This document shows positions 1,988 to 50,445 of a stretch of DNA of 53,270 nt, piece by piece. Origin of the DNA: Acidimicrobiales bacterium (GTDB lineage: Bacteria; Actinomycetota; Acidimicrobiia; Acidimicrobiales; JAHWLA01); contig DATLNE010000039.1 in the NCBI GenBank assembly GCA_035536915.1, forward strand, positions 1 through 53,270, in the 5' to 3' direction. Both the position numbers and the translations under genes were made by a program. Position 1 is the stretch's first letter; each line of letters begins with the position of its first letter. The notes beneath the pieces are model-generated. The model was not told the DNA's origin. It saw only the letters and a program-made list of their open reading frames with translations, and did not search any database.

Positions 1988-2023
1988 TCCCTGGTCCCTC
2001 CGTAGTGCGACGGGCGCTAGCTC

Positions 2024-10815: not shown

Positions 10816-10819
10816 ATGC

Positions 10820-11574: not shown

Positions 11575-11603
11575 GCCGCGACCACCGAGAAAGGTAACGA
11601 ACG

Positions 11604-12530: not shown

Positions 12531-12543
12531 GGGAAGGAGCCCG

Positions 12544-12966: not shown

Positions 12967-12975
12967 GAGGCCGCC

Positions 12976-14036: not shown

Positions 14037-14044
14037 GGCCGGCC

Positions 14045-19582: not shown

Positions 19583-19590
19583 GAGGCACG

Positions 19591-20623: not shown

Positions 20624-20651
20624 GGCCGCCGACAACGAGAGGGGGAGGAAC

Positions 20652-20987: not shown

Positions 20988-21466
20988 GCTCGGCGGAAGA
21001 AATCGCACAGCAGGCCCAGGTGTCGATCGCCCGCATCGACGCGACTCTCGTGGCCATCAAGCAGCAGCAGGACCACGCCGGGCGCACAGTCGAACAGCTC
21101 GTGCGGCTCGTCGAGGAACGGCTGTCGGCCAAGTTCGACGCCTTCGGCGCCCGCTTCGACACGCTCGAACGGAGGCTCGACGACATGGAGGCTTCCCGCG
21201 CCGCCGCCCGGGTGGAGCAGGCCGCCGAGTTCCGTGCCCTCGACCTCCGCATCGACCAGGCCAAGGTCGACCAGGCCGCCGAGTTCCGGGCGCTCGATCT
21301 CCGCCTCGATGCCGACTTCAAGGCGCTCGACGCCCGGATCGAGAACGTGGAGAGGTGGCGGGACAAGGTCACAAACCGGGGATGGGGGCTCGCTGCGGGG
21401 ATGACGCTCGCGGGCGGGGGCGTGGGCGCTGCGCTCGCCACCCTGACGACGAGGCTTACAGCGTGA
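20984..21466 (+). CDS. Coiled-coil membrane protein of the lysis cassette (holin-like accessory)
   Basis: A 160-residue protein: a long coiled coil (about residues 5-125) with internal repeats (QAAEFRALDLRIDQ, QAAEFRALDLRLDA), then a single C-terminal membrane segment (GWGLAAGMTLAGGGVGAALATL). The layout resembles XhlA/hemolysin-type or actinophage holin-accessory proteins that anchor to the membrane next to the endolysin. ATGA overlap with the receiver gene and GTGA overlap with the following small membrane gene show tight coupling. Confidence 0.6.
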   Translation: MSSAEEIAQQAQVSIARIDATLVAIKQQQDHAGRTVEQLVRLVEERLSAKFDAFGARFDTLERRLDDMEASRAAARVEQAAEFRALDLRIDQAKVDQAAEFRALDLRLDADFKALDARIENVERWRDKVTNRGWGLAAGMTLAGGGVGAALATLTTRLTA

Positions 21467-30586: not shown

Positions 30587-33346
30587 TCAGCGTGCAGTGA
30601 GCACGGACGTCAGCCGGCGGCGGCGCGTCACGCCACCGACCGCGCTTCCGAGCAACACGATGAATGCGGCCATGAGGAGGCCTTCACCGAGACCTCGCCG
30701 GGTGACGATGAGCCCCGCCAGTTCCGTCCCGGCCGACGGCCGGCCGCCAAGGCCGTCGCCCCGGACGCCTTGGGCGACACCGGAGCCCGCTGCCGAGGTG
30801 CCGAGGTCCGACGAAGCGTCAAGGCCACCGGACGTTCCGTCGGGCCCGCTTGCCGTCTCGGCGGGGAGGCCGTCGCTGCCACCGGGGATGCAGCCCCCGG
30901 TGTGGCACGGCGGCTCGTCGGGGTTCCGGTTGACCGTGAAGACCGACGTGTTCTCCACACCCGCGAACTGCACGATCGTCCGGGACCGTTCGGCCGAGTC
31001 GTTGTAGATGTCGACCTGGACCGCAGGGACGGCGCGGCGCGTCGTGGTGTCGCCTCCGAAGAGCTTGCCCTGGTCGTTCAGGGTGACTTCTTTGGCGAAG
31101 TCCGCCGCGCTTTGGCCGATTCCGGCAAAGGCACCCTTGGGCGTGGCATGCACGGCGGCGTCGGGGAAGAAGAGGCGCACCCGGGTCTGGAGCGCCCGCC
31201 GCACGGCCTCGGCAAGCTGCTCACACGCAAGCGAATCGCCTGAGCGCTCCAACTTGTGGCCGTCGTGCCTCACCTTGGTGGTGCACCCAGGGCTGTCCAG
31301 GACGACGGCGCCCTTGGCATCCTTGACCACGACGCCCCGTAGCGTCCTCGTCCATTCGGCGGAAGCGGTGCCGCGGCGACCGTGCGCGACGGTCGCCGCC
31401 GTGACTTCCACGCTCCCGATCTCCAACCGGCCCGCACCGGGAACGTCGATGCCGATGCCACTGCTGCGCGCCACCGAATGCGTGCGCATCCCGTCCTTGA
31501 CCGTCCGCTTGACCGTCGCGTTGACCACGCTTTCCCCGACGGCCAACCCGGCTCCCGCGGCACCGGCATGCCGGGCTACGGCAGTGCCTTCGTACTCCTT
31601 GAGCGCGCACTTCACCTGGGCGGAGTCGGCAGAGCCTGTCGGTTCCGCCGGTTCGGTGGAACCGCCGTCGAGGCAGGTCTCGCTCGGGTAGTTCCAGGGG
31701 ACGGCGTTGCGCTTGGCGGCCTCCGTCGACGTCGTGTCGAGGCCCGCCTGTTGCGCGGCGGCGGCGGCGCCGGCGGGCTGCACGGTGACCGTCGGCACCC
31801 GACCGAGCACGACACCCCGTGACTCAGGGCGAAGCGCGTCCCTCCCCCTCGGCACGAAGCCGACGACGTTGGCGGTGTCGCCGAGCGCGGAGACCCTCGT
31901 GCCGAACCCGGCGGCATCGCCGGAGAACGAAATGTAGGTATCGGTTGCTTCCGGAATGTCGTCGGTCAGGCTGTCGTAGTCGGCCACGGCTTCCGGGCGC
32001 ACCGACTCGGTCAGGTCACGGAGCACCCGGTACTTCGTTCTCCCGAGGTCGCCCATGGGAACGAACATCCGGTCACTTGTCGGGTCGGCCACGATCAACC
32101 CGCTGGGTGCGAAGTCAGGCCCGAGCACGACACCGTTCTGCGGGGGCGTCGCCCGTCCGTCGGTGATCAGCAGGAATTTCTTGTCCTCACTTCCACCGCC
32201 CATGTAGTAGTGGCCCGTCGTCTGGTTCAGGCCGTAGATGTAGTTTGTGTCGTCCGGAGACGTGATCGAGCCCACCCACGTACCGAGGCGCGCATCGAAC
32301 ACCCACGCGTTCGGGGTCGTGCTCGACAAGCTCTGCACGAACAGCCGGTCGCTGCCGTAGTCGTAGCTGGCGATGCCGTTCGCGCCCCCGTCGAAGTAGG
32401 TGCCCGCCACAGGGTGGAACTGGAGATCGAACAGCGCTGCGTCCGCTGCGGTCGCCGTCGGTGAGATCGCCAGTTCGACAACCCCCGGTTGATTCGGAAA
32501 GTTGTCGTTGCCGCTAGAACCGGTGGAGCCCGCTGCGCAGGTGAACAGCAATTCGTTGCGGCCGAGCTTGGGGCTGCTGCGGGCGATGAGCGCTCCCAAG
32601 CCCATCGTCCAGAGCGGCTGGTTGCACTCCGGGACCGGCTTCGCCCACAGCAGCGAACCGTCGTCGGGGCTGAAGGCGGCCACGGTCGACACCATCCCGG
32701 CAGGCTTGCGCTGGTAGCCCCACTGCTGGCCGAGGACTGTTGTGGACATCTCGCCCACCGCGTAAATGCGGTTGTCCTCGGCGGAGTACGTGATGCCGCC
32801 GATGAAGTAGCCAGGCAGTTTCTCGGTCATCGTCCACTTCTTGACCGGCGCGGCATCAGGACCGATGCCGACGCTGTACAACGCGCTGTCGAGGATGGAG
32901 TCGCCCGGGGCCGTGAAGAAGAGGCGCTTTCCCGCGAGGTCGACGGCGCTCTTCAAGGGCGACGCGTCGGCGGTGCCGTTCAGGAGTGGGCGCTTGGCGA
33001 CGAACGTCGGCACCCTCGGTCGCAGGTCGTACTCGACGAGGTACGTCGTGTACTCCGGCCCCGTCGTCACCGGCCCGACCATGTGGGGGCCGCTTTTCGC
33101 GTACATGCCGAACATCCGTTGCGACACAGGATCGATCGCCGCGATGTTGAACGGTTGATCCGGCACCTCGGGGTCCGGCTGAGGCAGGGTCCCCAGAATC
33201 TCCACCGGCGACTTGGGCGCGGCCTCGGCGACGCGCGGCGCTTGGATCCAGACGGTCACCGCTCCCCCGACAAGAGCCAGCGTAAGCAGCAGCGCACGTC
33301 GGGAGAGGGTGTGGCTTCGGGGCGAGAGTGACGAGCGAGTACGAAT
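30587..33346 (-). CDS. Large secreted propeller-like protein with C-terminal membrane anchor; apparent ATT start
   Basis: The product (about 919 aa) has a signal peptide (SRRALLLTLALVGGAVTVW, then APRVAEA) and a C-terminal anchor (GEGLLMAAFIVLLGSAV followed by RRRR). Between them repeated strands with DPVSQRMFGMYAKSG, YSAEDNRIYAVGEM, FDARLGTWVGSITSPDD and ADPTSDRMFVPMGDLG suggest a beta-propeller; later a beta/helical region and a Gly/Ser/Asp stalk. No ATG, GTG or TTG precedes the signal core in frame after the upstream noncoding region; an ATT at 33346 lies six bases from AAAGGGG and is the best start. It is the first gene of the operon, 20 bases ahead of the binding protein. Role unknown, perhaps sensing or binding at the cell surface. 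Confidence 0.6.
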   Translation of the reverse strand: MRTRSSLSPRSHTLSRRALLLTLALVGGAVTVWIQAPRVAEAAPKSPVEILGTLPQPDPEVPDQPFNIAAIDPVSQRMFGMYAKSGPHMVGPVTTGPEYTTYLVEYDLRPRVPTFVAKRPLLNGTADASPLKSAVDLAGKRLFFTAPGDSILDSALYSVGIGPDAAPVKKWTMTEKLPGYFIGGITYSAEDNRIYAVGEMSTTVLGQQWGYQRKPAGMVSTVAAFSPDDGSLLWAKPVPECNQPLWTMGLGALIARSSPKLGRNELLFTCAAGSTGSSGNDNFPNQPGVVELAISPTATAADAALFDLQFHPVAGTYFDGGANGIASYDYGSDRLFVQSLSSTTPNAWVFDARLGTWVGSITSPDDTNYIYGLNQTTGHYYMGGGSEDKKFLLITDGRATPPQNGVVLGPDFAPSGLIVADPTSDRMFVPMGDLGRTKYRVLRDLTESVRPEAVADYDSLTDDIPEATDTYISFSGDAAGFGTRVSALGDTANVVGFVPRGRDALRPESRGVVLGRVPTVTVQPAGAAAAAQQAGLDTTSTEAAKRNAVPWNYPSETCLDGGSTEPAEPTGSADSAQVKCALKEYEGTAVARHAGAAGAGLAVGESVVNATVKRTVKDGMRTHSVARSSGIGIDVPGAGRLEIGSVEVTAATVAHGRRGTASAEWTRTLRGVVVKDAKGAVVLDSPGCTTKVRHDGHKLERSGDSLACEQLAEAVRRALQTRVRLFFPDAAVHATPKGAFAGIGQSAADFAKEVTLNDQGKLFGGDTTTRRAVPAVQVDIYNDSAERSRTIVQFAGVENTSVFTVNRNPDEPPCHTGGCIPGGSDGLPAETASGPDGTSGGLDASSDLGTSAAGSGVAQGVRGDGLGGRPSAGTELAGLIVTRRGLGEGLLMAAFIVLLGSAVGGVTRRRRLTSVLTAR

Positions 33347-33496
33347 CGGAGTCCCCTTTCGATGCGCGGCAAACGCATCGCGACCCTGGATGGGGCGTCT
33401 ACAGGTGACTAGTAGTCGGCGCGGGCGTTTCCTTACGGCCGTTCGAAGGTTTTTTCCGGGCCCGTAATCACATCGCCTGACCCCCGTGTATCCCCC

Positions 33497-34171
33497 GTGA
33501 GAAGCATGTACAGGAGCCGGGGGGCGGCCGTGTGCGGCATGGATGCGCGGACGTGCACCTCCTCCCGTGCACGGTGGGTCGACGCAAAGGACGCAGTGGC
33601 CACGGGCAACTCGGCGGCACATCCTCAAGGGCCCGACGGTGCGCCGTCGTCCGGCTACGAAACCGACCTTGTCGGAGAGATGTACTACCGGTACTACCGG
33701 GCGCTGGTTCGGTTCTGCCTGCGACGGGGTGCGGACGCGCACCTGGCGGAGGACGTCGCACAAGAGACGTTCGTGCAGGCGATGAGGTACCTGCATCACT
33801 ACGACCCGGAGCGCCCGATGTGGCCTTGGCTCTCAACGATCGCGGCTCGAATCGCGCAGCGTGAGACGACCAAGGCCCGCCGAGAATCACCCCGCGACGT
33901 CCCGGGAGAGGTCGACGAACAGGCGCTTACGCCTATCGACCCGTCGGACTCCGATGACGCCGTTGTGCTGCAAACCGCCATGGCCGCGGTGCCGTCCCGG
34001 CAGCGACTGGCACTGATGTTGCGGTACGAGCACGACTACACCGGCGCCGAGGCTGCTCGATTCCTCGGCATCGACGACAACGCCTTCGACCAACTGCTGT
34101 GGCGGGCGAGGCGAAGGCTCGCCGTCGAGTTCAGCCGAGCGGTCTCGAAGGAGCGCCGCGGAACTTCCTGA
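33497..34171 (+). CDS. ECF sigma factor
   Basis: An RNA polymerase sigma factor of the extracytoplasmic-function type. Region 2 covers YYRYYRALVRFCLRRGADAH, AEDVAQETFVQAMRYL and WPWLSTIAARIAQRE; region 4 is AAVPSRQRLALMLRYEHDYT with GAEAARFLGIDDNAFDQLL. The first 60 residues from GTG 33497 look non-homologous; ATG 33539 is another possible start. It is divergent from the secreted-propeller/Liv operon and convergent, 15 bases apart, with the sigma-like membrane protein. No anti-sigma gene is adjacent. I infer it could control the divergent operon. Confidence 0.8.
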   Translation: MRSMYRSRGAAVCGMDARTCTSSRARWVDAKDAVATGNSAAHPQGPDGAPSSGYETDLVGEMYYRYYRALVRFCLRRGADAHLAEDVAQETFVQAMRYLHHYDPERPMWPWLSTIAARIAQRETTKARRESPRDVPGEVDEQALTPIDPSDSDDAVVLQTAMAAVPSRQRLALMLRYEHDYTGAEAARFLGIDDNAFDQLLWRARRRLAVEFSRAVSKERRGTS

Positions 34172-34186: not shown

Positions 34187-36007
34187 TCACGACGTGCGGC
34201 GGCAGCTATCGCGCCAGGTGCGGCCTCCGTCGACCGAACAACGGACTGGCGCTCCGAGCCCCGGCTTCCGTCCTTCGACCAGCGTCCCGTCGCCGAGCAC
34301 GACGATGCTCCAGTACGAATGATCCTCTTCGGCCACCAGCCGCCACGTGTCGCCCCGGTCGTCGGAGATGTACAGGCTGTTCGGCTTCCGCTGGAAGTAG
34401 CTCACGGCGCTGTAGATGCGCCCGTCGGGGGCGGCCTCGACAGCGATGAGCGAACGGGTGTCGGGTGCACCGGGGAACTCGACGGGCCGGAACGTCCGGC
34501 CACCGTCGTCGGACCGGTGCAGAGCCCGGTTCGTGCCGACGAGCACCGTGTCGGGGCCGCTCCATGCAAACTTCGTCCAGGTGGTGTCGAGCCCGCCTTC
34601 GATGACCCTGTCGCAGCGGCCGTGGGTGCAGGAGTACATGCTGTACTTCGCCACCAGCCCGGGCGGGCCCCCGACGGTGAGCTCGATGGTGGTGGCCAGC
34701 AGCCGTCCCTCACGGGCGAAGTCCGGACTGAAGGAAACCTGCCACGGCACCACGTTGGGGGGCAGCGGAAGATCAAGGGGACGGAGGACGGGGTCGCCGT
34801 CCACGTACTGCTTGGCGAGGGGTGCGGTGACTCCCGGCTCGACGCCGAAGAGGATCCTGGGGTCACCGTCGGAGAACAACGGCGACATCGTCGCCGCGCC
34901 GTTCAGCGTCGAGATGACGCGAAACGTCTGGCCCCCGTCGGTCGACACCGAGAACGACACGGGCGAGACCGAGAAAATCCTCGCGTCGCGGGGATACGCC
35001 GGCGGCAGCAGGATCTCTCCGAAGTCGCGGCCGATCGCCGGCAGCTGCCGCCAGGTGGAGCCACCGTCGGTCGACTTGAACAACACCGGGCACCGGACGT
35101 CGCAGTCGGTCTCGGCACCGGCGGCGAACATGGTCTTGTCTTCTTCGTACGACGGCGAGGGCGTGATGTCGGAGGCCCACCATTCGGTGGTGGTCGACGG
35201 AGTCGCCCCGGTGGCGTTGCCGCCGCCTGTCGATGTGATGCTCGCTCCGGGGGCAGGCGTTCGTGACGAAGCACCGCGGGCGGGCGCAGCGGTTGCGGAC
35301 GCCTCGGACTTCGACGGTGCGGCAACGTCCACCGATGGCGGAGCGGAGGGCAACTGCCCGGTCCCGGCCTCGGGGGTGAGCCAGGCGACGGTGGCGGCGA
35401 GGAGCGGAACGACGAGCGCGCCGAACGAATCCGACGAGCTTGTGAACCGCCAGGGCCAATGTGGCCAGAACCGGCGACCGAGAAAGGCGCCCGCCTGTCC
35501 GAGCGCTTGGTGGAGGCGGGTGCGAGCCCGATGGCGCCGCACCGCCTCCTTCACGCTTTCACGGCGCGAGACGGTGGTGACGGGATCGTCCAGCGTGCTC
35601 AGCAACGCGGCACGATCGGTCAACGAGAGCGACCGCATCGCCGCCGCCGTCTCGCGCCACCGCTGGCGTGCTTCGACGTGGCGGCCCAGGTCGTAGCGGT
35701 CAGGGCGCTCGGCGGGCACGACGCCGACGGGCAGCACTCGCGTCGAGGCCCGCTTGGCATCCATGGCCACGTTGCGGGCCACGATGTACGCCCATCGGCA
35801 GAAGTCGTCGACATCGGTGACGACGAGCCCGCGGCTCAGGGCGCGGGTGGCTGCTTCGGCAACCGCTTCCTCGGCGGTCTCGGCGTCGATCCCCTTGGCT
35901 CGAAGTGCGCCGACAAGCCGATCGCGCGCGACGGGCCAGAAGTCTTCGAGCAGAACTGGTGTGAGCACGGCCCCCGCAGTCCCGGCTCCAACTTCCTCCG
36001 ACTGCAT
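34187..36007 (-). CDS. Membrane-tethered ECF-sigma-like protein with external Asp-box propeller
   Basis: A 606-residue fusion. Residues 21-88 look like sigma region 2 (AEEAVAEAATRALSRG; DDFCRWAYIVARNVAMDAKR) and 121-172 like region 4 (AAMRSLSLTDRAALLSTL, then SVKEAVRRHRARTRLHQAL). One hydrophobic segment (196-211, FGALVVPLLAATVAWL) and a Ser/Thr/Pro linker lead to an external domain with five Asp-box motifs: STDGGSTW (312), STDGGQTF (355), SDDGGRTF (499), SDDRGDTW (548), SVDGGRTW (591). Asp boxes mark sialidase/BNR-type propellers. Sigma domain inside and propeller outside imply a sensor whose DNA-binding part is held at the membrane, perhaps released by proteolysis; this is inference. The sigma homology is convincing in pattern but diverged. 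Confidence 0.7.
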   Translation of the reverse strand: MQSEEVGAGTAGAVLTPVLLEDFWPVARDRLVGALRAKGIDAETAEEAVAEAATRALSRGLVVTDVDDFCRWAYIVARNVAMDAKRASTRVLPVGVVPAERPDRYDLGRHVEARQRWRETAAAMRSLSLTDRAALLSTLDDPVTTVSRRESVKEAVRRHRARTRLHQALGQAGAFLGRRFWPHWPWRFTSSSDSFGALVVPLLAATVAWLTPEAGTGQLPSAPPSVDVAAPSKSEASATAAPARGASSRTPAPGASITSTGGGNATGATPSTTTEWWASDITPSPSYEEDKTMFAAGAETDCDVRCPVLFKSTDGGSTWRQLPAIGRDFGEILLPPAYPRDARIFSVSPVSFSVSTDGGQTFRVISTLNGAATMSPLFSDGDPRILFGVEPGVTAPLAKQYVDGDPVLRPLDLPLPPNVVPWQVSFSPDFAREGRLLATTIELTVGGPPGLVAKYSMYSCTHGRCDRVIEGGLDTTWTKFAWSGPDTVLVGTNRALHRSDDGGRTFRPVEFPGAPDTRSLIAVEAAPDGRIYSAVSYFQRKPNSLYISDDRGDTWRLVAEEDHSYWSIVVLGDGTLVEGRKPGLGAPVRCSVDGGRTWRDSCRRTS

Positions 36008-38640: not shown

Positions 38641-38862
38641 TCATACGCTGCATACCGTGTGCACGACGCTCGCCGGTATTCGGAAGACACAGATCTCGAA
38701 ACGGGGACTTCCTTGGATAAGCAGCATGAACCTATAGAGACCCTCCTCAACATAGAACGAATGGGCGAGAATGGACGCTCTCTCCCCGCTCGTGAGCGTG
38801 ATCTCAAATGTCCCGGCGTGGGGGCAGAGGCGTAAGTCTTCTGGCAACGGATCCGGATTCAT
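38641..38862 (-). CDS. Immunity gene of the orphan toxin tail
   Basis: A 73-residue protein whose ATG overlaps the stop of the orphan toxin (TGATG), the arrangement expected for a toxin and its cognate immunity gene. It reads MNPDPLPEDLRLCPHAGTFE, ITLTSGERASILAHSFYVEE, GLYRFMLLIQGSPRFEICVF. The end (VVHTVCSV) is abrupt and may be truncated. No family recognised. Confidence 0.55.
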   Translation of the reverse strand: MNPDPLPEDLRLCPHAGTFEITLTSGERASILAHSFYVEEGLYRFMLLIQGSPRFEICVFRIPASVVHTVCSV

Positions 38863-39213
38863 CAATCCAATCCTAGATACTGTCGGCCCTTGCTGATCGC
38901 CCGCTCGACGACCGGATCGCCTTCGAGTTGCTTCTTCAGGTTGCGCGGCATGCCCACAAGACTCTCCGGCATCGAAGTCGTAGAGGCACTTTCCACCCGA
39001 GCGGTCCTGGAGGTGGAGCTGCCCCGGCCGTACGACCGGTGCGGGGTTCTCGGCGTCAATGCGCCACCCCTTTCCGGTTTCGAGGGTACGGCTCGTCGCC
39101 TGGGACCGCGAGCCCCGAGCATGCACGCGTTGGAACCCTCGTTGTGAACGAGGACGTCATCCTCACCCGCGCCCACGAAGTAGGTGTGGATGCCGTCGAC
39201 GGTCAGATTGACG
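38862..39213 (-). pseudogene. Orphan toxin module: HINT end plus toxin tail, frameshifted
   Basis: The first frame reads NLTVDGIHTYFVGAGEDDVL and VHNEG, nearly the same as the HINT end of the RHS protein at 40075-40144. A second frame then gives a coherent toxin-like piece (TLETGKGWRIDAENPAP, VRPGQLHLQDRSGGKCLYDF), and near 38965 sense returns to the first frame (GMPRNLKKQLEGDPVVERAI, SKGRQYLGLD). So at least two frameshifts break the gene, compensating each other. It lacks the RHS body. It is probably a displaced C-terminal tip left by an earlier toxin replacement. Confidence 0.75.
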
Positions 39214-39397: not shown

Positions 39398-39811
39398 TCA
39401 GATCGCCGCCACGATGGCGCGCAGCCCGTCGAGGCGGTCGCCTTCGCTGATTAGCGCCTCCATCCGGGCGAAGTCCTCGGCGAGGTCTATAGCGCCGAGG
39501 AGGAGCCGTCGGACCTCTTGGTCTGGTTCGCCCTCTGGCGCGCCCTCGGGAATCGCCACCTGCACCATGAGGGTCCGTTCCTTTCGGGAGAACCGCCCGC
39601 TTCGGATGCCCTCGAACTCCGGTGTGAAGTCTCTTCCCGCTGGGACGTGGAATACAACATTCACGTTAAAAGGCGATGAATATGAGTCGCGGACCTCAGC
39701 GACTCGCCTCATGGCGTTGTCGATCGCCGTCGTCCAGGCCTTGTTGGACACGACGCCGGACACCGCTCCTATAGACAAGGCCTCCATGGACACACCATCA
39801 ATGCCGGTCAT
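39398..39811 (-). CDS. Immunity protein for the RHS toxin
   Basis: A 137-residue protein starting at an ATG that overlaps the RHS stop (ATGA), so translation is coupled as expected for cognate immunity. It reads MTGIDGVSMEALSIGAVSGV, then a strand-rich middle (FNVNVVFHVPAGRDFTPEF, TLMVQVAIPEGAPEGEPD) and a long helix (VRRLLLGAIDLAEDFARMEA). No known family. It would block the GIY-YIG-like tip. Confidence 0.7.
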   Translation of the reverse strand: MTGIDGVSMEALSIGAVSGVVSNKAWTTAIDNAMRRVAEVRDSYSSPFNVNVVFHVPAGRDFTPEFEGIRSGRFSRKERTLMVQVAIPEGAPEGEPDQEVRRLLLGAIDLAEDFARMEALISEGDRLDGLRAIVAAI

Positions 39812-42800
39812 GTCGCTGCTCCCGCCCACCTCTCAAAGTTCAACGGCCCCGGGTCCATTTCGACGATGATACGCTCGTAGCCGAGGATGTCGGACCGGTT
39901 TCCCGCGGTAAGGATCCTCATATTCTTGTCCTTCATAAACCCCTTGGTGTAGCGGCCAGCTGGGTTGCTGGTGATCCCGGTCTTCAGATAGTTCCCTGCC
40001 TTGTCCTCGAGGCGGTAGAGGTACGTCAGCTTGGGGCTGTTCCGGGAGTTGCCGTGGATGGGGCATGACGCCGTGTTGTGGACGAGGATGTCATCCTCTC
40101 CCACGCCGACGAAGTAGGTGGGGATGCCGTCGACCGTGAGGTTGAAGGCCCTCGTGCGGAGCGCGGATCGGACCTTGATGCCGCCGACGGGGACGAGTTC
40201 GCCCTGCGCCGTGCGCACGAGATCGCCGGTATCGAGCGCCGCCGCCTCCTGCCACTCCTCGTCGGTGGCGTTCCAGAAGGGATGGTCTTCGGTGGTGGTG
40301 ACGAGGTCGTTGTCGATCTCAAGGTCGATGACGGTGTCGTCGTGCTCCCACAGGTGCGTGACACGCCGCGCTCCTCGTTCACCCGTCTCGGGGTCCTCGG
40401 CCAGCACGTCGTCGCCCACCCGGACCTCGGAGATCGCCTTGCGGGTGCCGTCGGCCATCAGGACCGACGTGGCGGCCCCGAACGAACAGGCTCCTGCGGC
40501 TTTGGCGCTCACCGTCGCCGCTCGCCGCGCTGTCGCCGCCTGTTTCGCCGCCGCCGCTGCCCTGGCCGCCGCCGCCTTGGCCGCCGCTGCCGCCTTGGCC
40601 GCCGCTGCGCCAGTCGCTCCTTCGATGGCACCTGAGATGGCGCCCTTGACGGCGGCTCGCGCCAGCCCGCGCAACGATTTGTTTTTGGCGTTCGCCATGT
40701 AGTTGGCCGCACCGAGCGCGCCGCCGATAGCTGCCCCGGCCAGGATCAGGCACCCGACGCCGCCGGTGCCGGCGCAGAAGGCGGCGGCGGCCATGCCGGT
40801 CGCGATACCGCGCACGACGCTGTTCCTGAGCAGTCCCTTGCCGAACTTGGCCGCCTTCTTGAGCAGTCCCCACCGATGGCCGTCGTCGATGAGCCCGGCC
40901 GGGTTGGCTCCCGCATACAGGTACCGGTTGCCGGTCAACGGGTCGAGGGCAAGGTCCATGTTCGCCGCCGCCGCCACGTACGAGTCGGCGCCCACGAACC
41001 GGTTGATGCCGGGATCGAGCAGGCGGGCTCCCAGGTTGTATGCACCGGTAGCCGGGTCACGCGGTGCCATCTGGAACCGCAGCCGGGAGTCCCACTGCGA
41101 CGAGCCCACCTTGGTGAGGCCCTTCTTCTCCTTGCCGTAGGCGTCGTAGTTGTAGACGGCCACGACGTTCTGGGCGCCGTCGAGCTGCTGGGTCAGGTTC
41201 CCGCGGGGGTCGTCGACGTAGTACGACCGGCTGCCGTCCTTGTCCTGGGCGACCGGCTCGCCTGTCGAGTCGAGCACGTAGCGGGTCTGCACTGCCCCGA
41301 CCCCGTCGGTCTCCAGTACCGCCTGCTCGGACGTGCCGTCATGGAAGAACAACGTCGTGCCGGGTGCCGCTCCGCTGTGGTCGACCCGTCGCACCATCCG
41401 CCCGAGGGCGTCGTAGGCGTACTCGACCTTCGACGCGGGCTCGGTCGCCACCACCGCGATCGGATGCGACGCCGCGTCGTAGCTGAAGGTGCGTGTGGGT
41501 TGGCTCGTCGCCGTCCTCGGCGAGTCGTCTGTCGAGACCAGCGTCGATGTCCGCGTCATTGTCTCGGCCGCCTGGTTCCCCAGGTGGTCGTAGCTGTACG
41601 TGGCCGCCTCGTTGGTGGTCGTTGTCTCGTTCTGCTCCTTGTCTTCCTCGACCTCGGTGGTCGTCCTGCGCGTCAACCGGTTCTTGGCGTAGGAGAACGT
41701 CGACTCGTCGTCCTGCAGCGTGTTGCCGCCGTCGTCGAGCGGGTACGACACCGTCTTCGCCTCGAACGGGTGCTTCGCCGCGTTGAGCCTGCCTAGCGAG
41801 TCGTAGGAGTAGGTGCCCGTCCCCGCAGTGAGCGGGTCGGGGGCGGCATCGGCCGTCAGCTTCCGCTGCGTGACCGTCTCCGACGTGCGGTTGTCGTCCT
41901 CGTCGTAGGCAATGCCCGTCCACGCCGAGAGCTGCGTCATCGTCGTGTCCTGCTTGCGGTAGATCCTCGACGCCAGCCGGTCGGACGGGTCGAAGAGCTG
42001 CTCCATGAGGACGGTGTTCGGCAACGTCGTCTGCTTCAGCAGGCCGTTCTCGAAAAAGTCGTTGGTGAAGCTGCCCAGGTTCCCCCACGGCGTCACCGTC
42101 TTCTCAAAGCCGTTGACGGTGTAGCCGTAGCTGGTGGTCAAGCCGTCTGTCGTGCGAGATGCCGGCAACCCGTCGGCCTGGTAGGCGTACGAACCGGCCT
42201 TGGTGTGGGCTACGCCGCCCGCGTCGTGGATCGTCTCGCTGTACGACGAGACCGCGTACGCCTGGTCATAGGCCAGTGACAGCGACGCCACCGGGGCACC
42301 GCCGAGTGTCGCCGACGCCGACGTCATGTTGCCGACGTTGTCGTACCCGAAGGTCGACTGGTGCGTGGGCAGGTTCAGGCCCGTCGCCGTCCTCGACAAC
42401 AGCGCGCCGTCGCTGCGATAGGTCTGCTCGACGGTTCGCTCGATGCCACCGTCGTACCGGTCGTAGCGGTAGCGCTGCCTGCCCTCGGGGTCGTAGACGT
42501 AGTGGGTGGTGTGCGAGCCGTCGGACGGGTCGGTTTCCGACTCGATCTCGTTGCGCTTCGTGTACGAGTACGTAGTGGTGAGCTGCCCGCCCTGGCCTTC
42601 CGGCTGGGTGAGCGTCATCAAGTTCCCGACCGGGTCGTACGTGCGCGACGACTGGCGTCCCTGGGCATCGATGCTGCGAAGCATGCGGCCCGCCTTGTCG
42701 TACACGAAGCTCGTCACCTGGCCCTTGGCCGTCTTGGTGGAAAGCACCTCGCCGTGCAGGCTGTAGGTCATCGTCGTCGGGTTGGAGTGGCCCGACTCGG

Positions 42801-45800
42801 TGGTCGACGTCACCTGTCCGCGGCGGTTGTACGTGTGGGTGGTGGCGTGACGACCGGCCCCGCCCGGCGGCTGGATGGAGGAACGTACGAAGCCATCGGG
42901 CGTGTAGACGACATCGCTCCGGGTCCCGGCCTCGTCGAGCATGGCCGACACCCGGTTGTTGGGGAACCGCAAGTACGTGACCTTTTGCGTGAGGGCAGGC
43001 GCGGTCGCCGTTCCTGCGAAGGACCGCGGCTCGAAGATCTCCTTGAGCTGGCCGTCGTCGTAGTAGCCGTAGGTCGACTTCCGCAGGCCGCCGTTCACGG
43101 TGGCCGATGCCGCCTTGACCAGGTCGCGGGAGTCGTACTCCCGGGTCAGCGTCGCCCCACTGGGTGGTGTTGCCGTGACCTGGTTGTCGTTGCCGTCGTA
43201 GCCGTAGGTGGCGGTGGCGAAGGGCGTCGAGCGTGTCACGACGTTGCCTCTGGCGTCGTAGCCGACGGTCCACGTGACGCCCGTGCGGTCGACGATCGAC
43301 GTGGTGCGACCGAAGGCGTCGTAGGCGAACTGCTTGGTGTGGCCCAGCGGGTCTGTGATGCGCTCCGGCTGGCCGGAGGCGTGATAGCTCCCGTACGTCG
43401 TGGTGTTGCCCTTGGGGTCTGTCGCCGAGGCCAGTCGACCGCCCGGGTGGTACGTGAAGGTGGTGACGGTCCCGTCGGGCGCCGTCGTCGACATGAGGTT
43501 GCCCTGTTCGGACAAGCCGAACTTTATGACCCGTTCGTCGTGGGTGCCTGCTGCCACCCGGGCTTCCACCATGTCGGCCACGCCGGGCGCCACGTCGCGG
43601 TAGGTGAGCGTGGTGGTGATTGGCTCGTCGCCCGCACCACTCTCGCGTTTCATCACGATCTGGCCGTTGGCGTTGTAGAGGTAGTCGGCCGAGTTGCCTG
43701 CTGCGTCGGTCTCGGAGACGACTCGGTTGTTCTCCCACAGGTAGCTGCGCTGGTTGCGCGCCGTGTCGCCTGCGTCCAGGTGGGAGATGAGGTTGCCTGC
43801 CGCCGACGAGGTGTAGACCTCGGTGGCTCCTTCGGGGTCTGTGATGCAGGTGGCCACCACCGCCTGCGGGTCACCGGGCTGGCACGAGCTGGTGTTGTAG
43901 GTGACGTTCCACTCCTTGCCCGCCCGGTCGGTCACCTTGCGCAACATGCCGCCCGACACCGACAGGTTGGTGGTCGCGCCCCGCCCGTCTGTGACCCCCG
44001 CCAGGCCGTCGCCGCTGTACGCGTAGCTGGTGGTGCGTCCCGCCGCTGTGATCGAGTCGAGCCGCCCGCTCCACGTGTTGACGTTGTATGTGACGGTGGT
44101 CCCGGCATACGAGGCCGATGCCAGGTAGTCGCCGCTCCACGCGAACGACATCGTGCGACCGGCGGGGTCTGTGATCCCCGACAACCGCCCTGCCGCATAG
44201 GTGAACGTGAGCGTGTTGCCGTTGCGGTCGGTGACCGACCGCAGGGTGTAGCCCGAGTTCCCCACCCCCGCGGGGTGGAACTCGTAGGTCACGCCATCGG
44301 GCCGCGTGGCCTTGTAACGGCGCTCGACGCCGACGAGGTAGTCGGTCAGCGTCAGGTCGACGCCAGGAGGCGAGTGCCACCCGGGCCCGGCCAGCCCGCC
44401 CTTGATGAAGTGGTGCCTGGTGCCGTCGGAGTCGAAGAAGTCGAACTGGTCCTCGGTGACCACCACTTCGAGGATCTGGCCCACGTCGGCCGACAGGACG
44501 GCCGAGACCACCGCGCCCAGGAAGTCGGCGGAATCGCCGTCGGCCACGCCGAGCCGCCAGCCGCGGCCCAACGGGCCCTCGCCTTGGTCCTTCTGCGAGT
44601 TGTAGGTGTGCGTGAGCCGCATGTTGAGGCCCTGGCCCGGCACGTTCAGGTCGGTCCCCTGCACCACCAGGTTGCCGTTCGACACGTTGAGGTAGGCGGC
44701 CTCGGCCCCCACGTCGAAGGCGTGGTAGGAGTAGAAGTTTTCGAGCCCGATGCGGTCGGACGACGCCTTGAAGCCGTAGCCCGACAAGCAGCCGACGGCC
44801 GACAGGGCACCCGCGGCGCACGTGAGCGACAGCTTGCGGTTGTAGGCGAAGACGTCGGAGCTGAAGTTGGCGTCGGCAGGCACCAGGTTCGTGGCAAACG
44901 ACGAGAAGGCGATGTGCATGGCGTCGCTGCTCACCGACGGCGTGCTGCTGCGGCTGTTGGCCTGATGGCCGTCGGCGTCGTGGGAGATCAGCAGCGTCTT
45001 CGACGCTTCGATGTCGCGCAGGAAGATGTCCTCGGCGCCGTTGCGGTCGCCTGCCGCCAGGTTGGTGGCGTCGGACCGGAAGGCCACGTAGCGGCCGTCG
45101 GGCGAGACGGCGGGGTCGAACGAGTAGCCGTTGGCCTGCGCCTGCGCCGAGCTCACCGACAGGCGCGTGGTCTCGTCCCAGTAATCGTCGTAGACGAAGA
45201 CGTCGGACTTCGCGTTGGTGTCGCCCGCCACGAGGTTCGAAGCCGACGACCGGAAGACGACCTGGTTGCCAGCGATCTTCGGGTTGGTGCTGTAGCCGTC
45301 GGGCTGGCCGTAGTTGATGCCGTTGGAGACCCGCATGGTGCCGTAGCTCGAGTGCCGGTCGTGCAGGAACACGTCGGTGTAGAAGTTCTCGTCCATCGGA
45401 TCGAGGTTGTTGGCATCGGACTGGAACGCCACCATGCGGCCGTCGTACGACAGCGTCGGGTTCGTGCTCCAACCACCGGAGCTCTCCCCTTGGTACTGGA
45501 AGGTCGTCGACACCCGTTCCGTGGTGCCGGCCGCGATGTCGCGCACGAAGATGTCGACGTCCCAGTTGTTGTCCCAGACGAGGTTGTCGGAGTCGGACGA
45601 GAACGCAACGAACATGCCGTTGCCGGAGATGGCCGCTTCGTAGTTGCTGCCGTTGCCCTGCCACTCCCAACTGTCGACCGAGGCCCGTGTGGTGACGCGC
45701 GACTCGCGGTCGTGCACGAACACGTCCTGACGGTCGTTGGTGTCACCGGGCACGAGGTTGGTGGCGCTGGAGATGAAGGCCACATAGCGCCCGTTGGCCG

Positions 45801-48800
45801 AGATGGAGGGGCCGAAGGTGTCGAACCATCCAGGTGCCGATGCCTGCGCGCCCGAGCTCGACACCGAGACGCGCTCGGTGACGCCGAGCACGCGATCGTG
45901 CACGAAGATGTCCTTGCGGAAGTTCGTGTCGTTGGAGACGAGGTTGTGGGCGTCGGACTCGAAGGCCACGTAGCGGCCGTCGCTGGAGATGGCCGGGTTC
46001 TCGCTCTGGCCGCCCGTCGCTTCCTCCCGGAGCGTGCTCAGCGACGCCCGTGTCGTGGGGATGTCGGAGGGAAGCGCGGCAGGCGGGACGCTCGACTTCG
46101 ACGACACCGTGAACTCACCGTCGACCGAGTTCTGCCCCGTCGCCTCGTGCTCGTCGGTCGCCGTGGCCGACCACGTGTAGGTGCCCGACGACAGCGGGAC
46201 CGTGGGCACGCCCGAGGAGTAGCCGCCGGAGGTGGCGGGCGTGGTGGCGAAGGTGTCGCGGGTCAGGCCCCAGCGGTCCTTGATGGTGACCTTTCCGCGG
46301 TAGGTGTCGTTGTTGGGGTCGGTCGCTGCGATGGTGAAGACCTGGCTGTCTTCGAGGTAGAAGGTCTTGCCCGCGGTGGGCGCCACGAGCGTGGGGATGC
46401 CCGGGGGCCGGTTGACGATGACGCTGAAGGCCCGCTGGGGCGTCTCCGCGCTGCGCGCACCTTTGATGTCGGCCGCGCTGGCCGCCCACGTGTAGTCGCC
46501 CGCGGCCAGGGCGGGCGCCGGCGTGCCCTGTGAGTTGGTGCCTGACTCGGCGGGTGCGGTGTTGAACGAGGTCACCACCGCGCCCGTCGGGCGCCGGATC
46601 GTGATGGTGCCCGTGTAGGCGTCTCCATCGGGGTCGGTCGACGCGATCGAGAACGTCTGCACGCCGTCGGTGGAGAACGCCTTGGCCGCTACGGGCGCCA
46701 CCAGGGTGGGCGTCACCGGTGCCTGGTTCGCCACGGTGAAGGCGCCTTCGGCCGACGCCGGCCCGTTGGCGCCGTGCACGTCTGTCGCCGTGGCCTGCCA
46801 CGTGTAGCGCCCGGCGGGCAGCAGCTGCGGCGGCGCGCCGGTGGCGTCGGACCCCGATCCGGCGGCCGCGGTCGGGAACGTGGTCACCGCGTTGGTCCCC
46901 GTGTTCCGCACGCGGATCGACGCGGTGTAGGCGTCGCCGTCGGCGTCGCCTGCGTTGACGGTGAACAGTTGCTCCTCGGTGGTGGAGAACGCCTTGTCGT
47001 CGTGGGGCGCCACCAGGGTCGGCCGCCCAGGCGGGGTGTTGGGCATGTCGGCCGACACCGAAAAGGCGCGAGGTGTCGACGCCGGTCCTGCCGAGCCGTT
47101 GAGGTTGGTGGCGCGAGCGGTGAACGTGTAGTCGCCGGGGCCGAGCGCAGGCTCGGGTGCACCGGACGACGGCGTGCCCGACATGGCCAGGCTCGTCTTG
47201 AACGTGGTGGCGACGGTGCCGTCGGGCCGTCGGACGGTGACCTCGGCCATGTAGAAGGAACCGCTGGGCTCGGTCGACGAACCGGTGTAGACAGGGCCGT
47301 CGGGATCGGTGGCGCTCACGACGAACGTCTGCGGCTCGCCTTGGAAGTAGACCTTGCCGTGGTCGGGCGCCACGACGGTGGGCGCGCCCGGCGGCTCGTC
47401 CTCCGCGCTCGCGGCGACCGTGAACAGCCGCGCCGCCGACGGCGGGCCTTGGGCGCCGCGTGCGTCGACGGCCACCGCCGTCCACGTGTAGCTCCCGCCG
47501 GGCAACGGGGGAATCGACGCCCCCGACGAGCCTTGCCCTGACTGCGCGGCGGTCGTCGTCACCGACGTTGTCGCACCGGTGGCGCGGTTGGTGATCGTCA
47601 CCGAGCCGGTGTAGGCGTCGCCGTCGGGGTCGGTGGCGTTGACCGTAAGCGTCTGCGCCTCGTTCCTGGCGAACTGCTTGCCGTCCGCAGGGCTGACCAG
47701 CGTCGGTGCCGCCGGTGCTCGGTTGGGCGCGGCAGCGGCCACCGCAAAGGGCACGGCCGCCGAGGTCGCCCCTTGCGCTCCGTGCACGTCTTTGGCCCGC
47801 GCCGCCCACGTATAGCTCCCGGCGGCCAGCGGCGGCACCGCCGCCGCCGAGGAGTTCTGCCCCGACGGCGCCGCCGATGCGTTCAGGCTTGTCGTCGCAC
47901 CGGTGGCGGCGTTGGTCACCACCACGGTCGCCGTATAGGCGTCCGCGTCGGGATCGACGGCGTTGAGGGTGAACACCTGCGCTTCGTCGGCGCGGAACGT
48001 GCTGCCGCCCGCGGGGGTAACGAGGGTCGGCACGTTCGGTGCCTTGTTGCCCGCAGGCGCGGCGACGGTGAACGACCGCGACGCGGACGCCGGCCCCTCT
48101 GCCCCGTAGCCGTCCTTGGCCCGGGCGACCCACGTGTACGTCCCTGCCGCCAGCGGTGGCAGTGCCGTCCCCGAGGCATCCGTCCTCGGCGGCGCCGCCG
48201 ACGTGGAGACAGTGGTGACGAGGCCGGTCGCCGTGTTGGTGACGGTGAGGACGGCCGAATACGGGTCGCCGTTGGCGTCGTCGGCATTGACCGTGAACAC
48301 CTGTGCCTCGTTGTGCGCGAACGCCTTGCCGTCGGCAGGCGCCACCAACGTCGGTGCGCCCGGGGGCTGGTTCTCCGGACGCGGAGGGACCGTCGTCGTC
48401 GGCGACGGGGTGCCCGCTGGGCGGGCGGTGACGGTCACGGGCCACGTCGGCGTGGACTCGCCGGTGTAGCCGTCGGAGGCCTCGATGCGGTACTCCAGGC
48501 CCGCGGGCGTGACGCCCGAGCCCGGGATGGCGGCGCTGTAGGCCACGGTGTCGTTGCCCTGTGCGACGGCCGCGGGCGCCGAGCTCGTCATCGGCGCCGC
48601 CTGCCACGGCTGGCCCGTGATGCGCCAGTGCACGGTGGCGGTGCACGACGGCGTCGCGCAGTTCGACGTCGCCTCGATGGGCATCGGCTCACCGGTGTAG
48701 GCGGTGGGCACCGGCACGTGGGCCGGGTGCGGCGGCTCCAGCACCCGCACCACGAAACGGGCATCGGGCGCCACCGTGCCGCCTTGGACGGGGACGTAGC

Positions 48801-50445
48801 CGCCCCAGTACGACCGGCCCGGCACCGCCGCGGTGGTGAAGCCGTCGGACGCGGTCATGACGTAGGCGAGCCCTCGGGTTGTGACCTCGGCAGCGGGCAC
48901 TGTCACCCGCCACAGTTCCACCCGGGAGGCAGTCGTCGTGCTCAGGACCGAGACGCGGCTCATGGGCACGGTCGTCGAGGTGCTGGGGACCGCAGGCGAG
49001 GTGGTGTAGACGAGGTCGGCCTTGCACCCTTCGGTGGCGCAGGTCAGCTCGGCCTCCAGCGTCAGGTCCTCCATCGCCGGGGCGGTGGCGGGCGGCACGT
49101 GGGCCAGGTGCACCGGCTCCTGCACGTGGATGTGGTGGTAGACGTTGTAGTTGCCCCCGTTGACCCAGACGCCGGGGGCGTCGACCGACGACAGGCCCGG
49201 CCACCACGCCGTGGTGGTGCCGTCGCTGACCGAGAAGAAGTAGTCGACGCCGCGGGTGTCGACGACCGCGGCAGGGATGGTGCCGCTGACGGAAATGGCA
49301 TCGGCACCGTTCGCACCGTCGGTGCGGGTCACGGCCATGGGCGCGGAGCTGAACATGAGGGCCGTCGACGCCGTGGCTGCCGTGTTGGTTGTGCGGTAGT
49401 ACAACGTGGCCGAGCAGTCGCGATCGGAGGCACAGGTGGCCTCGCCGGAGACGGGGATGTCCTGGCGATAGGTCGCCGTCGGCACCGGCACATGGGCAAT
49501 GTGCGGGGGTTCGAGGACGTGCACGTGGTGGCTGCCCGCCGGGCTTTGCTGGCCGTCGCGAGGGGCGTAATAGCCCTGGTACACCGTCCCCGGCGAGAAC
49601 GCCTGCGTGTGCCCGTCGGTGACATGGATGTAGTAGTCGAGGCCCTGGGTGGTGACCGCCGAGCCCGGCACCTGGGCGCGGTAGGTGATGCGAGTGGCGC
49701 TACCACCCAAGCTCGTCCCTGGACCCTGCGCGCCCATTGCCGTGGACGTCCACGCCGCGGCCGCACCGCCCTGCGGCGGGGTGGCCCGGTACGAAAGCGT
49801 GGCCTGGCAGTTGCCGGTCGAGCACGACGCCCGTGCTTCGAGGTCGATGGGGCGGCCGGAGGTGCCGTAGGTCGCCGGTACGTGGTCGAGCAGCGGCGGA
49901 GCGAGCACTTCGACGTGCAGGTACGACCCCGTCGACGGGCTGCCTTCGGCTTCGGTGGTGCCGGGGAACGTCGTGGTACGGCTGTTCTGGTCGACGGCGA
50001 GGAAGTAGTCGACGCCCTTGGTGGTGACCGCAGCGCCGGGGATGGAGCCCGACCAGGCGACGACGTCCTCGGTTCCCGTGGCCGTGGTGGCGCCACGGGT
50101 CAGCGCCACGATTTGAAAGCCGGGCTCGGCGACGACGCCGGGAACGGCATACAGCGCAGCGGGCGTCGTGCTGCGGTAGTAGAGCAACGCCGAACAGGTG
50201 GCGCCCGTGGCGCACGTCGCCGTCAGCGAGATGGCGATGGGCTGCCCGTACGGCGCTGTCGTCACCGGCTGGTGCACGACCACGGGGCCGGCGGTGTCGG
50301 CCGTCACCGGTGTCTCGGTCAGCGAGGAGGCGGTGACTGCCACCACCAGGGCGGTGGCCACGACCTTCACCCACTTGGGCACCGATCGCAGTGCCCGGAA
50401 AAACCACAGACTGCGCCCTTGGCGCTGAAGGAGTCCGACCCGCAT
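39808..50445 (-). CDS. Giant secreted RHS polymorphic toxin with HINT and GIY-YIG-like nuclease tip
   Basis: 3545 residues from ATG 50445, preceded by AAGGGAG. In order: signal segment (WVKVVATALVVAVTASSL), about six N-terminal repeats with HVP and paired Cys (50-665), eight or so Fn3/PKD-like repeats of about 100 residues with PPGAPTLVAP starts and YTWxA cores (680-1455), PD40/TolB-like repeats (SSDGRYVAFESDAHNL; 1465-1870), RHS/YD shell (1900-3150) ending in YNLGARLLDPGINRFVGADS, a hydrophobic Ala-rich region, and a HINT autoprotease domain from Cys 3320 to His-Asn 3457. The 88-residue tip has YLYRLEDKAGNYLKTGIT, NPAGRY, a Glu in GYERIIVEM and PGPLNFERWAG, which fits a GIY-YIG/URI nuclease. 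RHS shells encapsulate toxins for delivery to competitors. Overlaps its immunity gene. Confidence 0.9.
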   Translation of the reverse strand: MRVGLLQRQGRSLWFFRALRSVPKWVKVVATALVVAVTASSLTETPVTADTAGPVVVHQPVTTAPYGQPIAISLTATCATGATCSALLYYRSTTPAALYAVPGVVAEPGFQIVALTRGATTATGTEDVVAWSGSIPGAAVTTKGVDYFLAVDQNSRTTTFPGTTEAEGSPSTGSYLHVEVLAPPLLDHVPATYGTSGRPIDLEARASCSTGNCQATLSYRATPPQGGAAAAWTSTAMGAQGPGTSLGGSATRITYRAQVPGSAVTTQGLDYYIHVTDGHTQAFSPGTVYQGYYAPRDGQQSPAGSHHVHVLEPPHIAHVPVPTATYRQDIPVSGEATCASDRDCSATLYYRTTNTAATASTALMFSSAPMAVTRTDGANGADAISVSGTIPAAVVDTRGVDYFFSVSDGTTTAWWPGLSSVDAPGVWVNGGNYNVYHHIHVQEPVHLAHVPPATAPAMEDLTLEAELTCATEGCKADLVYTTSPAVPSTSTTVPMSRVSVLSTTTASRVELWRVTVPAAEVTTRGLAYVMTASDGFTTAAVPGRSYWGGYVPVQGGTVAPDARFVVRVLEPPHPAHVPVPTAYTGEPMPIEATSNCATPSCTATVHWRITGQPWQAAPMTSSAPAAVAQGNDTVAYSAAIPGSGVTPAGLEYRIEASDGYTGESTPTWPVTVTARPAGTPSPTTTVPPRPENQPPGAPTLVAPADGKAFAHNEAQVFTVNADDANGDPYSAVLTVTNTATGLVTTVSTSAAPPRTDASGTALPPLAAGTYTWVARAKDGYGAEGPASASRSFTVAAPAGNKAPNVPTLVTPAGGSTFRADEAQVFTLNAVDPDADAYTATVVVTNAATGATTSLNASAAPSGQNSSAAAVPPLAAGSYTWAARAKDVHGAQGATSAAVPFAVAAAAPNRAPAAPTLVSPADGKQFARNEAQTLTVNATDPDGDAYTGSVTITNRATGATTSVTTTAAQSGQGSSGASIPPLPGGSYTWTAVAVDARGAQGPPSAARLFTVAASAEDEPPGAPTVVAPDHGKVYFQGEPQTFVVSATDPDGPVYTGSSTEPSGSFYMAEVTVRRPDGTVATTFKTSLAMSGTPSSGAPEPALGPGDYTFTARATNLNGSAGPASTPRAFSVSADMPNTPPGRPTLVAPHDDKAFSTTEEQLFTVNAGDADGDAYTASIRVRNTGTNAVTTFPTAAAGSGSDATGAPPQLLPAGRYTWQATATDVHGANGPASAEGAFTVANQAPVTPTLVAPVAAKAFSTDGVQTFSIASTDPDGDAYTGTITIRRPTGAVVTSFNTAPAESGTNSQGTPAPALAAGDYTWAASAADIKGARSAETPQRAFSVIVNRPPGIPTLVAPTAGKTFYLEDSQVFTIAATDPNNDTYRGKVTIKDRWGLTRDTFATTPATSGGYSSGVPTVPLSSGTYTWSATATDEHEATGQNSVDGEFTVSSKSSVPPAALPSDIPTTRASLSTLREEATGGQSENPAISSDGRYVAFESDAHNLVSNDTNFRKDIFVHDRVLGVTERVSVSSSGAQASAPGWFDTFGPSISANGRYVAFISSATNLVPGDTNDRQDVFVHDRESRVTTRASVDSWEWQGNGSNYEAAISGNGMFVAFSSDSDNLVWDNNWDVDIFVRDIAAGTTERVSTTFQYQGESSGGWSTNPTLSYDGRMVAFQSDANNLDPMDENFYTDVFLHDRHSSYGTMRVSNGINYGQPDGYSTNPKIAGNQVVFRSSASNLVAGDTNAKSDVFVYDDYWDETTRLSVSSAQAQANGYSFDPAVSPDGRYVAFRSDATNLAAGDRNGAEDIFLRDIEASKTLLISHDADGHQANSRSSTPSVSSDAMHIAFSSFATNLVPADANFSSDVFAYNRKLSLTCAAGALSAVGCLSGYGFKASSDRIGLENFYSYHAFDVGAEAAYLNVSNGNLVVQGTDLNVPGQGLNMRLTHTYNSQKDQGEGPLGRGWRLGVADGDSADFLGAVVSAVLSADVGQILEVVVTEDQFDFFDSDGTRHHFIKGGLAGPGWHSPPGVDLTLTDYLVGVERRYKATRPDGVTYEFHPAGVGNSGYTLRSVTDRNGNTLTFTYAAGRLSGITDPAGRTMSFAWSGDYLASASYAGTTVTYNVNTWSGRLDSITAAGRTTSYAYSGDGLAGVTDGRGATTNLSVSGGMLRKVTDRAGKEWNVTYNTSSCQPGDPQAVVATCITDPEGATEVYTSSAAGNLISHLDAGDTARNQRSYLWENNRVVSETDAAGNSADYLYNANGQIVMKRESGAGDEPITTTLTYRDVAPGVADMVEARVAAGTHDERVIKFGLSEQGNLMSTTAPDGTVTTFTYHPGGRLASATDPKGNTTTYGSYHASGQPERITDPLGHTKQFAYDAFGRTTSIVDRTGVTWTVGYDARGNVVTRSTPFATATYGYDGNDNQVTATPPSGATLTREYDSRDLVKAASATVNGGLRKSTYGYYDDGQLKEIFEPRSFAGTATAPALTQKVTYLRFPNNRVSAMLDEAGTRSDVVYTPDGFVRSSIQPPGGAGRHATTHTYNRRGQVTSTTESGHSNPTTMTYSLHGEVLSTKTAKGQVTSFVYDKAGRMLRSIDAQGRQSSRTYDPVGNLMTLTQPEGQGGQLTTTYSYTKRNEIESETDPSDGSHTTHYVYDPEGRQRYRYDRYDGGIERTVEQTYRSDGALLSRTATGLNLPTHQSTFGYDNVGNMTSASATLGGAPVASLSLAYDQAYAVSSYSETIHDAGGVAHTKAGSYAYQADGLPASRTTDGLTTSYGYTVNGFEKTVTPWGNLGSFTNDFFENGLLKQTTLPNTVLMEQLFDPSDRLASRIYRKQDTTMTQLSAWTGIAYDEDDNRTSETVTQRKLTADAAPDPLTAGTGTYSYDSLGRLNAAKHPFEAKTVSYPLDDGGNTLQDDESTFSYAKNRLTRRTTTEVEEDKEQNETTTTNEAATYSYDHLGNQAAETMTRTSTLVSTDDSPRTATSQPTRTFSYDAASHPIAVVATEPASKVEYAYDALGRMVRRVDHSGAAPGTTLFFHDGTSEQAVLETDGVGAVQTRYVLDSTGEPVAQDKDGSRSYYVDDPRGNLTQQLDGAQNVVAVYNYDAYGKEKKGLTKVGSSQWDSRLRFQMAPRDPATGAYNLGARLLDPGINRFVGADSYVAAAANMDLALDPLTGNRYLYAGANPAGLIDDGHRWGLLKKAAKFGKGLLRNSVVRGIATGMAAAAFCAGTGGVGCLILAGAAIGGALGAANYMANAKNKSLRGLARAAVKGAISGAIEGATGAAAAKAAAAAKAAAARAAAAAKQAATARRAATVSAKAAGACSFGAATSVLMADGTRKAISEVRVGDDVLAEDPETGERGARRVTHLWEHDDTVIDLEIDNDLVTTTEDHPFWNATDEEWQEAAALDTGDLVRTAQGELVPVGGIKVRSALRTRAFNLTVDGIPTYFVGVGEDDILVHNTASCPIHGNSRNSPKLTYLYRLEDKAGNYLKTGITSNPAGRYTKGFMKDKNMRILTAGNRSDILGYERIIVEMDPGPLNFERWAGAAT

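Follow-up and report, generated by a model that had tools for sequence, protein, structure and literature searches.

A chimeric gene of an Acidimicrobiales bacterium joining a sigma-like head through the membrane to an Asp-box propeller, and its small family of one-piece ECF fusions

One-chain ECF sigma factors and the fusion gene

ECF signalling normally takes a sigma factor, an anti-sigma factor and a sensor. ECF sigma domains that share one chain with a membrane helix and an outside domain have nevertheless already been published. In actinobacteria, ECF52 (SCO4117 of Streptomyces coelicolor), ECF53 and ECF48 carry a sigma domain, a membrane helix and a regulatory extension in one chain; ECF52 has a proline-rich stretch and a carbohydrate-binding outside domain, and its release by proteolysis has been proposed (PMC5826349, PMC8999054). 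In IutY (ECF243) of Pseudomonas putida, sigma is fused to a membrane-spanning part and activated by regulated intramembrane proteolysis (PMC8999054). ECF57 and the planctomycete WD40 ECFs join sigma to a propeller-forming repeat (PMC8999054, PMC8567305). An earlier note, made from the sequence alone, contrasted the gene described here with typical ECF systems of separate sigma factor, anti-sigma factor and sensor; since ECF48, ECF52, ECF53 and IutY already have sigma joined to a membrane helix and an outside domain in one protein, that contrast was overstated (PMC8999054, PMC5826349).

The gene lies in the window, by which we mean the whole stretch of 53,270 nucleotides analysed. It is a single intact frame of 606 codons with an ATG start, as first described, and is read on the minus strand. 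GC at codon position 3 is 0.80, 0.80 and 0.88 over three sections of the gene, which is coding-type throughout. The protein is built, in order, of a sigma-2-like head, a membrane helix, a Ser/Thr/Pro/Ala linker and an Asp-box propeller (table 1). Our main reading, to which we give a probability of about 0.6, is that it is a single-pass, one-piece receptor derived from an ECF sigma factor, with a cytoplasmic sigma-2-type head and an outside, ligand-sensing propeller, and that the window copy has been reshuffled.

Table 1. Positions of the fusion gene, its parts and associated genes (window coordinates, except the last row, which gives coordinates within other loci)
Feature	Position	Strand	Basis or remark
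Whole fusion gene	34187..36007	-	606 aa, ATG; stop codon 34187-34189
Sigma-70 region 2-like segment, residues 29-90	35738..35923	-	Sub-threshold Pfam Sigma70_r2, family profile, hhalign
Region 4 remnant, residues 127-170	35498..35629	-	33 residues between anchors, without Pfam region 4 match
Predicted membrane helix, residues 194-212, N-in/C-out	35372..35428	-	Hydropathy maximum of the protein and K/R bias
Ser/Thr/Pro/Ala/Gly-rich linker, residues 213-273	35189..35371	-	Composition; BLASTP boundaries 216 and 279
Predicted extracytoplasmic propeller, residues 274-606	34190..35188	-	AF2 model, GH74 structural match, PDB profile matches
Asp-box 1, STDGGSTW, residues 312-319	35051..35074	-	
Asp-box 2, STDGGQTF, residues 355-362	34922..34945	-	
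Asp-box 3, SDDGGRTF, residues 499-506	34490..34513	-	
Asp-box 4, SDDRGDTW, residues 548-555	34343..34366	-	
Asp-box 5, SVDGGRTW, residues 591-598	34214..34237	-	Between two C-terminal cysteines
Ordinary ECF sigma factor gene (P0002)	33497..34171	+	Convergent with fusion gene; Sigma70_r2 6e-13, r4_2 4e-10
Secreted-partner genes of other fusion genes	L033:4540-5103, L041:4736-5365, L102:3092-3697, L100:5956-6462, L094:1184-1732, end of L101		

Other genes of the window are of different kinds. Divergent from the ordinary ECF gene is a minus-strand gene (30587-33799) whose large product has no Pfam match and, with a signal-like N-terminus and a membrane anchor at the C-terminus, is probably exported. 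The minus-strand gene at 39808-50451 encodes an Rhs/YD-repeat protein of 3547 aa that has PD40 repeats and, at the C-terminus, a PT-HINT pretoxin domain. Among the small genes behind it, a short minus-strand ORF (38862-39176) starts with VGAGEDDVLVHN, which also occurs near the end of the Hint domain of the Rhs protein, so that the short ORF resembles a displaced Rhs tip. A phage structural region spans about 2000-21000, with a major head protein (11604-12530, 5.5e-70) and an endolysin (19748-20623, 2.6e-42).

The outside propeller and its family

The C-terminal half had been described as a propeller with five Asp-boxes, and all five are present as exact matches to S/T-x-D-x-G-x-T/S-W/F, where shuffled sequences give an expectation of 0.008; they fit the published Asp-box consensus (PMC2716378). 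Structure prediction of the propeller alone by AlphaFold (AF2), a check that the earlier note had proposed, returned a good model (pLDDT 82, pTM 0.82) of one complete folded unit. The model aligns with the N-terminal GH74 propeller over 296 residues (Z 24, 3.2 A), and a profile search of the PDB led to GH74, sortilin and Ycf48. Both Pfam BNR (7.6e-10) and Sortilin-Vps10 (1.7e-8) matched the window propeller over their cut-offs, and the WD40 family gave no Pfam match in the window protein or the other fusions. With repeated boxes within a predicted propeller fold, this half is, as modelled, an Asp-box (BNR) propeller. The model also makes it seven-bladed, judged from the full-length match to the seven-bladed GH74 unit rather than from a blade count in the coordinates.

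The single membrane helix that had been claimed is borne out, as there is one candidate, only moderately hydrophobic (Kyte-Doolittle 1.64), which coincides in position with the relatives' helix and lies about 25 residues from the head; the Ser/Thr/Pro linker likewise stands, with Ala and Gly added. The 40 residues before the helix contain 8 K/R and the 40 after it 3, and over 24 membrane-anchored members, which are mutually related and hence not independent, the corresponding numbers are 166 and 68. Cysteines beyond the helix are even in number (0, 2, 4 or 6) in all 24, whereas odd and even numbers both occur on the cytoplasmic side; the window propeller has the cysteine pairs C302/C306, C460/C465 and C590/C602. 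Because of the even cysteine counts and the positive-inside charge, the propeller is placed outside, as the earlier note had it. The predicted arrangement, with the head inside and the propeller or tail outside with disulfides, fits both patterns.

To find how widely the architecture occurs, a propeller profile was searched against 397 genomes of the order. It gave 11 full-length matches (E < 1e-80) in six genomes; the next match (1e-13) was partial. Three are in the bacterium's own genome (the window gene, C15 and C44), two in a congener (Actinomycetota bacterium 0813_bin7), one in Acidimicrobiaceae bacterium BP_115 (G008) and five in one further genus, the congener and G008 being named from a search with a four-row propeller alignment. 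In a phylum sample of 396 genomes, the complete architecture was found in the window's own genome only. A Pfam BNR search of the own genome gave no matches, controls included, the model being too short for absence to be inferred. Two of the 11 frames are cut at contig ends, and each of the nine that can be read through has a membrane-helix candidate and a BNR match. Sigma regions 2 and 4 are both present in eight of these nine, the window protein being the exception, and no zinc-finger anti-sigma family reaches E 0.01 in any of the nine. The one-piece ECF-membrane helix-propeller receptor is thus a real, small gene family, which puts an outside propeller and a sigma head on a single chain where no anti-sigma domain is recognisable. 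The earlier proposal of sensor and sigma in one chain holds for the family, while the window protein has diverged and its region 4 is truncated.

Six of the 11 fusion genes (C15, C44, C107 and C119 of the congener, G008 C17 and G196 C280) adjoin a gene for a secreted cysteine-rich protein of about 170-220 aa, whose cysteines are conserved; no Pfam family was found for it in the four scanned. A profile built from five of these neighbours recovered the six and no others in the 397 genomes, and since it was made from them, their refinding is expected; the information lies in the lack of further matches. The secreted protein is probably the ligand of the canonical propeller fusions or controlled by them, and with a dedicated secreted protein at six of 11 fusion genes, a ligand-receptor pair is directly testable. 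In the genus, each of the four canonical fusion genes (L033, L041, L101 and L102) is preceded by TGTCACCCG boxes or one-mismatch versions, repeated or inverted, which also occur upstream of one partner gene. The box resembles the ECF41 -35 element TGTCACA (PMC3426412), and is only a lead, as it has no convincing -10 partner; a search for an ECF-type GGAAC...CGT promoter in front of the canonical fusion genes gave no match. The window gene has neither the boxes upstream nor a secreted-partner gene beside it. Instead it faces the ordinary ECF gene P0002, which occupies the position where some relatives carry the partner gene.

A sigma-like head with a shortened region 4

The head had been described as containing both sigma region 2- and region 4-like sequence, and only the former was recovered. 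In the proposed profile search, Pfam Sigma70_r2 matched the whole window protein at E 0.017 and the head alone at E 0.0025, both under the curated cut-off. A profile of the window head and seven relatives, however, matched solved ECF sigma factors (best 3.2e-10), including M. tuberculosis SigL, and by hhalign it matched the canonical fused ECFs with 98% probability (E 2.7e-14); region 2 is matched in 10 of 11 members of the window-head clade. The window protein alone is marginal, and it is the relatives' profile that settles the homology of its head, as judged by sequence profiles, to ECF sigma region 2. The structure searches barely probed the ECF fold of the head, since the propeller fills the list and almost only propellers were returned.

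Region 4, in contrast, has no Pfam profile match listed in the window protein even at E up to 10, and none of the 11 clade members matches it. From the start of region 4 to the terminal R-x-R there are 26-33 residues in those clade members that can be measured cleanly (33 in the window protein), against 37-38 in canonical ECFs including the propeller fusions (38 in C15). The segment is 5-12 residues short in the clade; therefore, the helix-turn-helix part before the last helix has been lost or reduced. The window protein keeps the first helix of region 4 and the last helix's Arg-rich end, whose R-x-R is invariant in the clade; the helix-turn-helix middle is shortened. The full-length AlphaFold model is poor (pLDDT 54) and draws two low-confidence helices at residues 127-170, and because of this pLDDT the region 4 geometry was not taken from it. 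By its profile matches, the window protein lacks the region 4 of an ECF sigma factor, which all eight canonical propeller fusions have, and it has probably lost part of the DNA-reading end.

A freed window head might still join RNA polymerase and start transcription alone as a full sigma factor, with the Arg-rich last helix reading the -35 element. Region 2 is retained in 10 of the 11 clade members, the R-x-R is invariant, and the canonical paralogs in the same genome carry complete sigma domains. However, the clade lacks any region 4 match and its anchors lie closer together than in canonical ECFs, and the conserved glutamine of region 2.2 is replaced in the window protein (EEAVAEAA for AEDLVQEAF). 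With region 4 cut short, the window head probably does not read a -35 element by itself, and with region 2 sub-threshold as well it may have lost its function as a sigma factor. We regard the full-sigma explanation as possible but doubtful.

The shortened region 4 extends beyond the window protein. Its clade (L002, L004-L006, L008, L022, L133, L134, L147) comprises mostly membrane-anchored sigma-like proteins and is spread across several families of the order; most members carry an outside tail that is short and finishes with a D-x-L-x-C...C-V-x-x-P-like motif. In the own genome, about eight to ten ECF or sigma-like proteins are anchored in the membrane and have a short tail instead of a propeller; about 40 sigma region 2 matches occur in its 3.2 Mb (L024-L063), about one-quarter of them followed by a membrane-helix candidate. 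The loss of region 4 in the clade poses the question of what role a sigma head without a -35 reader has at the membrane. One tentative answer is a mimic or decoy, in which a non-transcribing head at the membrane would, by binding core polymerase or an anti-sigma factor, tune another sigma factor, for example that of the convergent P0002 or one of the two propeller paralogs. The sigma-like domain of PhyR, which works in partner switching, is a model for such a role. The retention of region 2 and loss of region 4 over the whole, mostly membrane-anchored clade speak for this explanation, as does the complete ECF gene adjoining the window gene, but that adjacency was observed once only and no anti-sigma gene was recognised beside the window gene. 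The output question is divided evenly between full sigma factor and mimic, and either is compatible with the receptor reading.

A chimeric gene and its place among known systems

The two halves of the window protein have different relatives. In BLASTP, residues 5-216 match a propeller-less membrane-anchored sigma-like protein of another genome (G008_C27; 51%, E 2e-47), whereas residues 279-603 match canonical propellers at 34-36% identity (E as low as 5e-45); at 1e-3 the window head has no match among the canonical heads. A tree of 37 head sequences pairs it with the G008 protein (100/99) within a clade of propeller-less, mostly membrane-anchored proteins, and well-supported branches force three separate head-propeller unions; in a propeller-only tree, the window propeller is unplaced, with long branches. 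The window gene is a chimera, with its junction within or at the end of the linker. The head tree and the BLASTP split together show that propellers and heads have been exchanged between lineages, and the window copy unites such swapping with membership of a whole, mostly membrane-anchored clade without region 4.

No ortholog of this head-propeller pairing was found in the one congeneric genome (76% complete) or among the 397 genomes of the order, and the window gene may thus be decaying, a recombinant of two membrane-anchored ECF genes that is losing function. Its diverged head and the lack of a secreted partner and upstream boxes would fit such decay. On the other hand, the frame is intact over all 606 codons with coding-type GC, none of the five Asp-boxes or three cysteine pairs has been lost, and the head is 51% identical to a relative in another family; decay is thus improbable. 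The uniqueness of the union in a draft genome of 54 contigs could also reflect a misassembly that joined two unrelated genes. However, the frame is open across the joint, and the window propeller shares just 34-36% identity with the others of the set and therefore is not an assembly copy of another locus, which leaves misassembly very improbable.

Under the preferred reading as a receptor, the cysteine-paired Asp-box propeller would sense a ligand outside and the membrane helix would anchor the cytoplasmic sigma-2-type head. A ligand bound outside would alter the state of the head, most likely through cleavage by a protease in or next to the membrane, so that the head could reach RNA polymerase and, presumably, its target genes. 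Cleavage is suggested for the fusions because it has been proposed for ECF52 and shown for IutY (PMC8999054, PMC5826349). That the sigma part is held at the membrane until release, as the earlier note proposed, is less secure for the window protein than for its paralogs because of its diverged sigma part and truncated region 4. The region 2 of its head should contact polymerase, or else an anti-sigma or sigma partner, and its output may be that of a sigma factor with altered promoter reading, of a sigma mimic or of a decaying recombinant. More speculatively, and on balance unlikely in our estimate, the window protein and its clade would be sigma mimics anchored in the membrane. An outside sensor would switch their sigma-2 heads, which have no -35 reader, and the targets of these heads would be other sigma or anti-sigma factors. 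In this reading, the canonical fusions and their secreted partners would form a ligand-receptor-sigma system without a separate anti-sigma factor.

Open-licence PMC literature yielded no ECF fused to an Asp-box or Vps10 propeller; the papers searched likewise gave no example of the Asp-box propeller as outside domain, of the missing zinc anti-sigma domain, of the secreted neighbour dedicated to the fusions or of the clade without region 4. The propeller shares its fold with GH74 xyloglucanases, sortilin/Vps10 receptors and Ycf48, which are the best solved neighbours by both profile and fold, at about 9-18% identity in structural alignments. GH74 has two propellers and the Vps10 propeller ten blades; the window protein has a single propeller, without the two-propeller cleft of GH74. 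In ECF57 and the planctomycete ECFs, the repeat is WD40 rather than Asp-box, and regulation has been proposed to occur via protein contact and linked sigma-2/sigma-4 cysteines. The C-terminal part of IutY, unlike that of the propeller fusions, is the anti-sigma factor of an iron-siderophore cell-surface system. Most similar are ECF52, ECF53 and ECF48, with which the window chain shares a predicted membrane helix and outside C-terminal domain. These three, however, carry a zinc-finger anti-sigma domain before the membrane, of which the propeller fusions have no match, and where ECF52 exposes a carbohydrate-binding domain, the window protein combines an Asp-box propeller with a head without region 4.
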